This document shows positions 39,934 through 42,271 of a stretch of 42,271 nt of DNA, in pieces. The notes under the pieces are model-generated. The model worked only from the letters and a program-made list of their open reading frames with translations. It was not told where the DNA came from and ran no database searches. A program made the position numbers and the translations under genes. The stretch's first letter is position 1; the number at the start of each line of letters is the position of its first letter. This DNA is from Paracoccaceae bacterium (GTDB lineage: Bacteria > Pseudomonadota > Alphaproteobacteria > Rhodobacterales > Rhodobacteraceae): contig JAIXSA010000130.1 in the NCBI GenBank assembly GCA_027484915.1, positions 1 to 42,271 of the forward strand, given 5' to 3'.

Positions 39934-40866
39934 ATGTCCCGCAAGATCATCATCGACACCGACCCCGGCCAGGACGACGCCGTCGCCATCCTCCTCGCGC
40001 TGGCCTCCCCGGAACTGGAGGTCCTCGCCCTCACCGCCGTCGCCGGCAACGTGCCGCTCCCCCTCACCCAGAAGAACGCCCGCCAGATCGTCGAACTCAG
40101 CGGCCGCACCGTCCCCGTCTACGCCGGCTGCGACGCGCCCCTCAAACGCAAGCTCGTCACCGCCGAATACGTCCACGGCAAGACCGGCCTCGACGGCATC
40201 CCCCTGCCCGAGCCTGCGCTCCCACTCGCCCCCGGCCATGCCGTCGAGTACCTCATCGACACCCTCCGCGCCCACGCCCCCGGCACCATCACCCTCTGCC
40301 CCCTCGGCCCCTTGACCAACATCGCCACCGCCTTCCAGCGCGCCCCCGACATCATCCCCCGCGTGGCCGAGATCGTCCTGATGGGCGGCGCCTATTTCGA
40401 GGTCGGCAACGTCACCCCCGCGGCCGAGTTCAACATCTACGTCGACCCCGAAGCCGCTGACATCGTGTTCAAATCCGGCGTGCCCTTGGTGGTGATGCCC
40501 CTCGACGTCACCCACAAGGCCCTGACCTCGCGGGAGTGGGTGGAGGAGATGCGCGCCCTCGGCACCTCCGTCGGCCAGGCCGTCGCCTCCTGGACCGATT
40601 TCTTCGAACGCTTCGACACCGCGAAATACGGCAGCGCCGGCGCCCCCCTGCACGACCCCTGCGTGATCGCCTACCTCTTGGAGCCCGCCCTCTTCACCGG
40701 CCGCCATGTGAACGTGGAGATCGAGACAGGGAGCGAACTCACCCTCGGCATGACCGTCGCCGACTGGTGGCGCGTGACGAAGCGAGAGCCCAACGCGATG
40801 TTCATGGGCAGCGTGGACCGGGACGGGTTCTACCGGCTGCTGACGGAGCGGTTGGGGAGGTTGTAA
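39934..40866 (+). CDS. Nucleoside hydrolase (IU-NH family)
   Basis: The 310-residue enzyme hydrolyses the N-glycosidic bond of purine or pyrimidine nucleosides to base and ribose. The calcium-binding motif DTDPGQDDAVAILLAL is at residues 8-23, VYAGCDAPLKR and the active-site segment AAEFNIYVDPEAADIVF are as in IU-type hydrolases, and the late APLHDPCVIAYLLEP supplies the catalytic His and Asp. AAAGGAG lies 7 bases before the ATG. It converges with the SLATT gene 6 bases away and marks the end of normal-GC DNA. Confidence 0.92.
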   Translation: MSRKIIIDTDPGQDDAVAILLALASPELEVLALTAVAGNVPLPLTQKNARQIVELSGRTVPVYAGCDAPLKRKLVTAEYVHGKTGLDGIPLPEPALPLAPGHAVEYLIDTLRAHAPGTITLCPLGPLTNIATAFQRAPDIIPRVAEIVLMGGAYFEVGNVTPAAEFNIYVDPEAADIVFKSGVPLVVMPLDVTHKALTSREWVEEMRALGTSVGQAVASWTDFFERFDTAKYGSAGAPLHDPCVIAYLLEPALFTGRHVNVEIETGSELTLGMTVADWWRVTKREPNAMFMGSVDRDGFYRLLTERLGRL

Positions 40867-40872
40867 GAGGAA

Positions 40873-41349
40873 CTAGTTCGGCGAGCGGGGCGATCTAGGG
40901 TCTGCTGTTGGAGCGGATTCTGCTGATTTTTCTTGGCTTGCAATCCACTTGGAGTGTTCCGTTGAAATTAGGCTTTCTACACGCTCGACTAGCAGCTTTC
41001 GCGCTGCCCGATCATCATCGGTATCGTATGGGTCTGCTCGCTCAATGTAGCAATACTTTTCATGACGCAATGCTTCACATGTTGACCTGTAGGTTATCCA
41101 GTTGTGCTGCCACTGATAAAGATGTTGTCCGCCTTCAGCCAATGCAATGAGCGTTCCAAGTGCTGCAACAACGGTAGAATACTCGTTGAGAGCTAACATG
41201 GGTATACTCGCTGACGCGGCAAGCACAAAGAGTCGGCCTAGCTTGTAGCTGCGCTGATTTGATCCGCTTTTTCGATCATACCATTCAATCTGCGCCTCAA
41301 GGCGTTCGTAACCCGAGGTCGGTTCGCTCTTAACAGCCGCTCGCATCAT
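40873..41349 (-). CDS. SLATT/DUF4231 membrane protein, predicted pore-type effector
   Basis: The 158-residue protein matches the DUF4231/SLATT domain: EWYDRKSGSNQRSYKLGRLF leading into two adjacent helices (residues ~38-75, LGRLFVLAASASIPMLALNE, TVVAALGTLIALAEGG), then QWQHNWITYRSTCEALRHEK, ERADPYD and RVESLISTEHSKWIAS. SLATT proteins are predicted two-helix pore-forming effectors in nucleotide-signalling conflict systems. It is the second gene of a pair: its ATG overlaps the stop codon of the TIR gene (ATGA). Local GC is about 40-50% by hand count, far below the rest of the window, so recent transfer is likely. Confidence 0.8.
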   Translation of the reverse strand: MMRAAVKSEPTSGYERLEAQIEWYDRKSGSNQRSYKLGRLFVLAASASIPMLALNEYSTVVAALGTLIALAEGGQHLYQWQHNWITYRSTCEALRHEKYCYIERADPYDTDDDRAARKLLVERVESLISTEHSKWIASQEKSAESAPTADPRSPRSPN

Positions 41350-41735
41350 GATTGCTCAATAAGTGTATGAAGATTTTTTGGATCCCATACCCACCACCGT
41401 TGCCCGCTAATCGCGTGCGGAAGCCGCAAGCTTTCCGGGTGCCCCGGCAGACCCATCGCGATAACTGGCTTTCTCATCTCAAGAGTAGTCTGCAGCTCCC
41501 AGTTCACCCAATCGCTCATCCATGTGTGCTCTTGGAGAAAGCACACAGTAACCGATGCTCTGGCAATCTTTTCACGAATTTTGGACTTGATGTAAGGAGC
41601 ATGGTCACTCTTGTAGGCGATCCGAACCGACTCATCATAGAACTCGAGTGGAAAGGATTCTCTCCACGCGAGCAGACGCACCCCATCAACCTGCTTCTTA
41701 TCTTCCATCTTAAAGCTAATAAAAACTCGCTTCAT
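41346..41735 (-). CDS. ThsB-like TIR-domain protein (DUF1863 type)
   Basis: The 129-residue protein consists of a single TIR-like domain of the MTH538/DUF1863 group found in Thoeris ThsB: MKRVFISFKMEDKK (strand A), FPLEFYDESVRIAYKSDHAP, KIREKIARASVTVCFLQEHT and DWVNWELQTTLEMRKPVIAM. Glu80 in DWVNWE stands where the catalytic glutamate of NAD-processing TIRs is expected. It would make a NAD-derived signal upon phage infection. The next gene encodes a SLATT membrane protein and overlaps by 4 bases, which suggests sensor and effector. Local GC is low. It lacks the C-terminal extension of the best-known ThsB proteins. Confidence 0.85.
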   Translation of the reverse strand: MKRVFISFKMEDKKQVDGVRLLAWRESFPLEFYDESVRIAYKSDHAPYIKSKIREKIARASVTVCFLQEHTWMSDWVNWELQTTLEMRKPVIAMGLPGHPESLRLPHAISGQRWWVWDPKNLHTLIEQS

Positions 41736-41764
41736 GAAACTGTCCTGCTGAACTTACCACACTC

Positions 41765-41793
41765 AATCTAGCAGGATACACGGATCACTCCAA
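41765..41793 (-). promoter_or_regulatory. Possible promoter of the TIR-SLATT pair
   Basis: On the minus strand TTGGAG (41788-41793) and TAGATT (41765-41770) are 17 bases apart, 30 bases before the TIR start codon. TCCTGCT (41743-41749) and AGCAGGA (41770-41776) form a 7-bp inverted repeat over the -10 and leader, a candidate operator. Confidence 0.35.
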
Positions 41794-41984
41794 GCCTGCC
41801 ACGATCTACCAATGGGTGATTTTTCTGCCCCACCTACCGCCCCTATTGGCTCCCACAACGTCCTGCTCCCCATCGGGAACTCCAGCCACTCCGCCTATGG
41901 CAGATAGAACGCCCTTGCGGCCTCGTCCTCCGCCTGCACCAGCACCGCCGCGATACCGATGCGGGGTGCGGTGCGGTGGCGTCA

Positions 41985-42098
41985 TCGTAGGGTGTGCATT
42001 CATTGCGCACCGTCGTAGTCAACCACCCGCGCCACGCCAACCGCTCAACCAGGGCCAACGTCCCGCGAAACGGTGCGCAATGAATGCACACCCTACGA
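41985..42098. repeat. REPIN-like perfect inverted repeat pair
   Basis: The 29-base arms at 41985-42013 and 42070-42098 are exact reverse complements (arm start TCGTAGGGTGTGCATTCATT), separated by 56 bases. GTAGGGTGTGCATTCATTGC-type sequences are familiar extragenic palindromes. The paired arrangement is that of a REP doublet (REPIN), which is spread by RAYT-type transposases; none is in this window. Confidence 0.7.
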
Positions 42099-42116
42099 GG
42101 TAAACCCCTAACAAAC

Positions 42117-42180
42117 CCCTAACGCCCACAGCCAACCCACTGAAATCCCTACCCCCCAAACCCGCGCCGCGAGCGGCGCA
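42117..42180 (+). repeat. Dispersed repeat, copy D
   Basis: CCCTAACGCCCACAGCCAAC and CCACTGAAATCC match copies A-C, but the right end has drifted to CCGCGCCGCGAGCGGCGC, itself a GC-rich hairpin. It lies 18 bases from the stop codon of the histidine kinase gene on the opposite strand. Confidence 0.5.
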
Positions 42181-42198
42181 GAGTCCTTTGCGGCCCCG

Positions 42199-42271
42199 TC
42201 ACCCCAGCGGCAGCACCACCTGGAACCGGCTCCCCCGCCCCTTCTCGCTCTCGATCCGCAGCCACCCCCGA
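42199..42271 (-). CDS. Histidine kinase, C-terminal end (partial)
   Basis: The last 23 codons of a minus-strand gene enter from the right edge: RGWLRIESEKGRGSRF and then QVVLPLG followed by TGA. The GRGSRFQVVLPL end is the G2-box side and final strand of the HATPase_c domain of sensor histidine kinases. The rest of the gene is outside the window, so its partner and signal are unknown. Confidence 0.7.
   Translation of the reverse strand, partial: RGWLRIESEKGRGSRFQVVLPLG

Follow-up and report, generated by a model that had tools for sequence, protein, structure and literature searches.

A TIR-SLATT gene pair, probably an anti-phage cassette, as cargo of a variable chromosomal slot in a Paracoccaceae bacterium

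The TIR and SLATT genes

The window, by which we mean the whole stretch of 42,271 nucleotides of the Paracoccaceae contig that was analyzed, carries near its end a cassette of two intact genes that runs on the minus strand from 41735 to 40873, with the TIR gene first (Table 1). Reading frames and family profiles both bear out the content that a sequence-only reading of the DNA had assigned to 40873..41735, namely, a ThsB/DUF1863-type TIR protein of 129 aa and a SLATT/DUF4231 protein of 158 aa, and the ATGA overlap that it had placed between them is found at 41346..41349. The G+C content is 0.508 for the SLATT gene and 0.494 for the TIR gene, against 0.662 for the whole window; the earlier hand count of 40 to 50% thus holds for the TIR gene, and that of more than 60% holds for the surroundings, whereas the SLATT gene lies slightly above the range given. 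Third-position G+C values of 0.47 and 0.56 for the SLATT and TIR genes, respectively, compare with 0.94 for the neighboring nucleoside hydrolase gene and 0.76 for another nearby gene. A search for sigma-70-like promoters upstream of the pair returned none, with a mean of 0.9 in shuffled sequences.

Table 1. Coordinates of the cassette, its predicted functional sites, and the borders of the slot that holds it
Feature	Position	Strand	Description	Basis
Nucleoside hydrolase gene	39934..40866	plus	Left slot border	Product named after annotated plasmid relatives
Inserted segment	40871..41826	.	~955 bp, G+C 0.498; two genes and ~90 bp upstream	Homology breakpoints in congeners
SLATT (DUF4231) gene	40873..41349	minus	158 aa, ATG start; predicted 2TM membrane effector	ORF; PF14015 and SLATT_1
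Second hydrophobic segment	41128..41178	minus	SLATT residues 58-74	Kyte-Doolittle 17-residue mean 1.45
First hydrophobic segment	41191..41241	minus	SLATT residues 37-53	Kyte-Doolittle 17-residue mean 1.63
TIR gene	41346..41735	minus	ThsB family, 129 aa, ATG start; predicted NAD-cleaving signal maker/sensor	ORF; family profiles
ATGA overlap	41346..41349	minus	SLATT start inside TIR stop	ORF coordinates
Glu80 codon	41496..41498	minus	Predicted catalytic glutamate	Invariant in TIR alignments; catalytic role inferred from TIR family
Phe5 codon	41721..41723	minus	Equivalent of Tyr8 in EcThsB2 (type II Thoeris)	Profile alignment to 8V6T
AGGA	41743..41746	minus	Possible ribosome-binding site, 7 nt 5' of TIR ATG	Read from upstream sequence
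Inverted repeat pair	41987-42013, 42070-42096	+, -	Perfect, 27 bases, in flank beyond TIR gene	REP-like by appearance
Histidine kinase gene, 3' end	42199..42271	minus	Right slot border, cut by contig end	Translation; congener gene in L247

The first protein scored 61.5 bits (E 1.1e-16) against PF08937 (Pfam ThsB_TIR), well over the gathering score of 21.2, and matched the ThsB models of PADLOC with a best E value of 8.4e-12; a profile search of the PDB placed 8fz9, labeled "TIR," first (E 2e-22), followed by the ThsB chains 9b7d and 6lhy. It has no hydrophobic segment at the Kyte-Doolittle cut-off applied to its partner. The glutamate singled out in the sequence-only reading, Glu80, is kept in all 33 TIR rows of one alignment and in all 47 of another. 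Phe5 is likewise present in 47 of 47 aligned TIRs, among which are TIRs linked to caspase, QueC, and SIR2 genes, all of them with Glu80; its pairing with Tyr8 assumes a three-residue tag in the deposited 8V6T chain, inferred from chain length. According to the part of PMC11204291 that was accessible, Tyr8 and Glu89 are the active-site residues of EcThsB2 (8V6T, type II Thoeris), and Phe or Ala is usual at the Tyr8-equivalent position of NADase-active TIRs. By that rule, the window TIR therefore carries an NADase-type residue.

The second protein was recognized by PF14015 (Pfam DUF4231; E 1.9e-19, 70.5 bits, cut-off 24.7) and, more strongly, by the NCBIfam model SLATT_1 (E 9.4e-32, 109.7 bits, cut-off 41). 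It had no match in PADLOC and no PDB chain by sequence at E values of up to 1, and a Pfam scan recognized no ligand- or nucleotide-binding domain in it. The two-helix architecture proposed earlier is reflected in two hydrophobic segments, one spanning residues 37-53 and the other 58-74, so that, as judged by Kyte-Doolittle segments, the protein would possess the two transmembrane helices that define SLATT/DUF4231; the same cut-off yields two such segments in 95 of 99 family rows, with the window counted, and one in the other 4. Conserved positions outside the membrane segments are W23-Y24-D25, R88, E92, and W135. These motifs are kept also in those rows of the mixed alignment that have no adjoining TIR and are therefore not TIR specific.

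The insertion and its slot in the genus

The left border of the cassette is marked by the nucleoside hydrolase gene, which was matched in 27 of the 31 genomes of the genus (window included), one of the matches being merely a 40% homologue; the nearest named relatives by this protein are Paracoccus and Pseudorhodobacter. Homology with the window stops at 40865-40871, beside the gene stop at 40866, in all 22 full-length congener copies, a count that leaves out one distant homologue, and it stops at 40864 in a partial copy and a fragment. On the far side, homology restarts, where present, at 41826 or later. The segment between these breakpoints, 40871-41826, holds the TIR and SLATT genes and, antisense ORFs aside, no others. 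That the insertion contains two genes and little besides suggests that the two proteins constitute the whole module. No Thoeris effector of the SIR2-SLOG, TM-macro, or caspase-like kind is present within the inserted segment, and a classical Thoeris system with an adjoining ThsA was rejected for lack of a ThsA there; beyond the TIR gene the contig extends for about 0.5 kb, to 42271.

In single-protein searches of 148 related genomes, the window's included, SLATT was found in the window's own genome alone, and the TIR was found in four, namely, the window's, one at E 2e-22 (G122), and two weak matches; in G122, a longer SLATT gene that adjoins the TIR escaped the single-protein search and came to light with a profile (L222). 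In 20 congeners, the corresponding site, 119,132 bases in all, gave neither a TIR nor a SLATT match.

For these 20 congeners (L246-L265), the region downstream of the nucleoside hydrolase gene was compared with the window, where the slot corresponds to 40866-42199, between the nucleoside hydrolase and histidine kinase genes, and where the TIR-SLATT pair is the sole cargo. The counterpart in L247 of the kinase gene on the right matches HATPase_c (E 3.8e-29) and HisKA (E 5.8e-20). Right-flank homology is present in 19 of the 20, and the interval that precedes it ranges from about 0.2 to 2.4 kb, with a G+C content of 0.47-0.58 in 17 congeners and 0.62-0.65 in three. The 25-base core of the perfect inverted repeat beyond the TIR gene is matched 22 times in the genome when up to 3 mismatches are allowed, against 0 times for a reversed-pattern control, and near-identical copies of the repeat lie in the slot of one congener (L252). 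An RNA element in this flank was considered and rejected, there being 0 Rfam matches.

The congener slots contain 35 ORFs of at least 80 aa, many of them overlapping or antisense, of which 22 were picked and 20 scanned against PADLOC, with loci L247, L251, and L263 outside the scan. Matches at E 1e-8 or better were returned for 9 of the 20 cargo proteins, from 9 of the 17 loci scanned; the choice was not blind, in that the first ten proteins, picked partly for a defense-like look, gave 9 of 10 and the other ten gave 0 of 10. The models matched were dCTPase (9.3e-154), PDC-S20/KAP (3e-74), dGTPase (1.6e-91), NsnA (2.2e-32), Old (5.7e-218), AbiU (8.1e-28), and AbiTii (4.7e-15), together with a weak and partial match to ApeA in L249 (2.6e-9) and broad kinase models in L258 (best 1.1e-33). 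The remaining 11 scanned proteins had no PADLOC model, and one of them is an alginate lyase by Pfam. Ten chromosomal proteins of the window, scanned as a control that was unmatched for gene kind, gave 1 match in 10, to ATPase-type models. We conclude that the slot is hypervariable and that, on the evidence of these profile matches, it carries defense-like genes in several congeners; the expectation of a defense-type location for the pair is borne out to that extent. The slot beside the nucleoside hydrolase gene offers a concrete place in the genus in which to seek further defense genes among the unnamed cargo.

Conservation of the pairing and diversity of its TIR partners

A SLATT alignment was searched against one genome per species (84,980 species), giving 151 confirmed loci of which the best 80 were analyzed, and against IMG/VR, giving 42 loci; adjacency was measured as the distance from SLATT to a TIR open frame. 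Among the viral loci, a ThsB-type TIR gene lies within 400 bp on the same strand in 41 of 42 (3 upstream and 38 downstream), or in 21 of 22 once near-copies are removed, and the sole unpaired locus, L103, starts at a contig edge. The genome loci are more mixed: among the best 80 of 151, a TIR gene lies within 400 bp in 36, comprising 17 of ThsB type and 9 of TIR_2 type on the same strand, i.e., 26 of 80, and 10 of TIR_2 type on the opposite strand. A further 15 of these 80 have a TIR beyond 400 bp only, and 29 have none in the fetched stretch, 5 of the latter lying less than 700 bp from a contig end. Counted by distance over the same 80 loci, 41 TIR genes lie within 400 bp, 17 at 0.4-2 kb, 7 at 2-4 kb, and 0 at 4-6 kb. 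The co-occurrence predicted in the sequence-only reading is thus upheld.

Further searches began from the TIR or from other collections. A TIR-centered search of IMG/VR found an adjoining SLATT in 16 of 17 loci, mostly on the same contigs as before, the exception lying near a contig end; of the 24 GenBank phage records in which the TIR was matched, 23 were matched by SLATT as well, with some duplicate deposits in the count; and on a haloarchaeal plasmid, a TIR gene is immediately preceded by one encoding DUF4231. Genes that overlap by one base or lie a few bases apart are seen again in the relatives L023, L024, L026, L104, and L106. A count that speaks against the pairing comes from 398 Pseudomonadota genomes: SLATT was matched in 11 besides the window's, with an adjoining TIR match in 3 of the 11, all of one genus, and a fourth (G408) that is weak and cut off; the TIR was matched in 45, the window's included, and most ThsB-like TIRs found there are therefore without such a SLATT.

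An integrase gene lies within about 4 kb of the pair in the seven Firmicute phage, satellite, and plasmid-prophage records that were examined. In five records of these kinds (L006, L008, L009, L014, and L015), the SLATT-TIR pair was observed between repressor-type genes and the integrase, a position that is usual for genes expressed in lysogens.

Gene order and TIR lineage vary around the SLATT family. In a SLATT tree, which came from a fast search, has many poorly supported forks, and is used here for the window's nearest rows and for gene order, the window protein groups with that of another Rhodobacteraceae genome (L023; SH-aLRT 97) and then with viral L104, L103, and L231 (93). The TIR gene comes first in L023, L104, and L231, with L103 cut, and the Firmicute rows that have an adjoining same-strand TIR place SLATT first, the linkage being kept despite the change of order; the partner labels on this tree use the distance to the TIR domain and undercount long TIR proteins. 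A TIR tree, built by a careful search and with some long branches that make exact placement unsure, distributes the SLATT-linked TIRs over four groups, two of them fully supported (the long form, 100/99, and an "ISHAW" form, 100/100), while a few fall outside. The SLATT-first form lies inside a set (98/99) that also holds two TIRs with other neighbors, and the TIR-first form of the window is one clade with weak support (59/66). TIRs linked to caspase genes and those linked to QueC genes make up separate clades. Four TIR groups and both gene orders thus indicate that one SLATT family is paired with different TIR lineages, and this pattern would fit an effector that is served by exchangeable signal makers.

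Several other arrangements were encountered. In rhizobia and other Proteobacteria (L010, L011, L012, L220, L221, and L222), a long TIR, an HhH DNA glycosylase/lyase, a QueC-like synthase, and a short ThsB-type TIR occur together, and in L010 and L222 a longer SLATT gene comes next. The short TIRs of these cassettes group as a single clade; some members in L220-L222 were judged by size and order only. A ThsB-like TIR gene lies directly 5' of a caspase-family gene in Curtobacterium, Pseudomonas, and Sinorhizobium plasmids (L019, L021, and L022), an arrangement named type IV Thoeris in the accessible text of PMC12847820. The same SLATT family occurs near long TIR_2 proteins in several phyla (L028, L030, L039, L048, L065, L067, L074, and others), one of these TIR_2 proteins (L030) being fused to an FGE-sulfatase domain, and elsewhere the neighbors of SLATT are pentapeptide (L070), ankyrin (L073), or beta-propeller (L042) proteins. 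In L218, two ThsB-like TIR genes flank a TPR-S gene beside a gene with a subthreshold DUF7379 match, possibly representing another TIR system.

Proposed function and relation to known systems

The cassette is probably an anti-phage device composed of a TIR enzyme and a small membrane protein. We suggest, with a probability of roughly 0.65, that it is a horizontally acquired, minimal two-gene abortive-infection cassette in which a TIR-made signal would lead to membrane damage by SLATT. Phage infection would cause the TIR domains to assemble, and the assembled TIR would cleave NAD+ to yield an ADP-ribose-type signal. The SLATT protein, whose two helices would anchor it to the inner membrane, would sense this signal through W23-Y24-D25, R88, E92, and W135 and oligomerize when signal bound, permeabilizing the membrane, and growth stop or death would follow before phage release. 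SLATT would in this way fill the place that ThsA holds in Thoeris.

A bolder proposal, for which we consider the chances evenly balanced, is that the pair exemplifies a further Thoeris-like type in which a bare SLATT hairpin is gated directly by a TIR-made ADP-ribose-type signal, and that in archaea, in Firmicute phages, and in Proteobacteria several TIR lineages have adopted one SLATT family; such a SLATT may possibly be the smallest signal-gated membrane effector of TIR systems. Should the mechanism proposed for the cassette hold, two proteins with 287 residues between them would suffice to link a TIR signal to membrane damage in the absence of any recognized ligand-binding domain, and the system would provide a compact model for the switching on of SLATT proteins, one of which is also needed in DRT10.

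The most serious rival, although we regard it as unlikely, dispenses with a diffusible signal: TIR and SLATT would form a membrane complex in which infection-triggered TIR assemblies cluster SLATT, or SLATT would be the sensor and the TIR would kill by depleting NAD+. In favor of this rival are the lack of a recognizable ligand-binding domain in SLATT, its lack of a PDB relative by sequence, the small size of both proteins, the overlap of their genes, and the capacity of TIRs to act as NAD+-depleting effectors, as described in the accessible part of PMC12847820. The pairing of several diverged TIR groups with SLATT, and the operation of other SLATTs with a reverse transcriptase in what is available of PMC12632851, argue against a specific TIR-SLATT protein interface, and the bare TIR resembles the ThsB signal makers.

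Distinctly less probable is a toxin-antitoxin-like pair, in which a constitutive NADase TIR would be restrained by SLATT, or the reverse, and which would mainly stabilize a mobile element. In its favor are the small adjoining or overlapping genes on phages, satellites, and plasmids; against this, the fetched stretch holds SLATT but no TIR at 29 of the best 80 of 151 genome loci, SLATT proteins occur with other partners (PMC12632851, as far as its accessible text extends), and the window cassette is chromosomal cargo of a slot shared with defense-like genes. That the two genes are chance neighbors in a low-G+C insertion and form no functional unit is scarcely credible, even though a same-strand TIR lies within 400 bp in only 26 of those 80 genome loci, given 41 paired viral loci of 42, the fall to 0 TIR genes at 4-6 kb from the genome loci, the recurrence of tight spacing in five relatives, and the absence of either gene from the same site in the 20 congeners. 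A chance pair of ORFs is excluded because of the family matches and the conserved adjacency.

The preferred reading, a TIR signal acting on a SLATT membrane effector, has precedents. In the accessible parts of the literature, SLATT is predicted to be an effector of membrane permeability regulated by ADPr derivatives (PMC9503650, citing a 2015 paper), larger systems are described in which SLATT genes occur alongside TIR and further nucleotide-related effectors (PMC7159879), DRT10 phage defense depends on a SLATT protein (PMC12632851, a preprint), and His-ADPR activates a TM-macro ThsA with membrane perturbation and N7-cADPR a caspase-like protease (PMC12847820). The Thoeris types named in the available text of the last source are I, II, and IV; type III could be a TIR-SLATT pair. 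No experimental study of such a pair was recognized in the literature searched, from which subscription journals were largely absent.

By its predicted domains, the window provides the ThsB-type TIR that types I, II, and IV have in common. With type I (ThsB TIR plus SIR2-SLOG ThsA) it shares the PF08937 family and the PADLOC ThsB models, and one locus found with the same TIR profile (L223) has a SIR2-STALD gene beside its TIR; in contrast to type I, the inserted segment is without SIR2 or SLOG, and the candidate effector is SLATT. With type II (ThsB plus TM-macro ThsA, His-ADPR) it shares the combination of a TIR and a membrane effector, as far as PMC11204291 and PMC12847820 were accessible, whereas it lacks a macro domain and has Phe5 where EcThsB2 has Tyr8. 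Type IV (TIR plus caspase-like protease, N7-cADPR) resembles it in that a ThsB-like TIR adjoins a different effector (PMC12847820, accessible text), and both Phe5 and Glu80 are present in the TIRs that L019, L021, and L022 link to a caspase gene, but the window effector is a 2TM SLATT rather than a protease and the TIRs belong to separate clades. DRT10 (reverse transcriptase, noncoding RNA, and SLATT) likewise has a SLATT proposed as a membrane effector, whose partner, in contrast, is a reverse transcriptase that makes cDNA and not a TIR (PMC12632851, in the part available).

The closest precedent removes the claim that the system was undescribed. In 2022, PMC9503650 reported TIR beside SLATT in Firmicute phages, with SN10 and Javan281 as examples in the text available, and its pairs agree with that of the window in the two domains, the predicted mechanism, and the adjoining arrangement of the genes; SN10 is matched by both window proteins, and Javan281 is matched by the window SLATT. 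Given this prior report, the window pair therefore joins a published, predicted kind, from the examples of which it differs in being chromosomal, in placing the TIR gene first, and in having a TIR of another group. What the present analysis adds is the cargo slot, for which no priority is claimed, and the breadth of TIR partners with which this SLATT family is associated.
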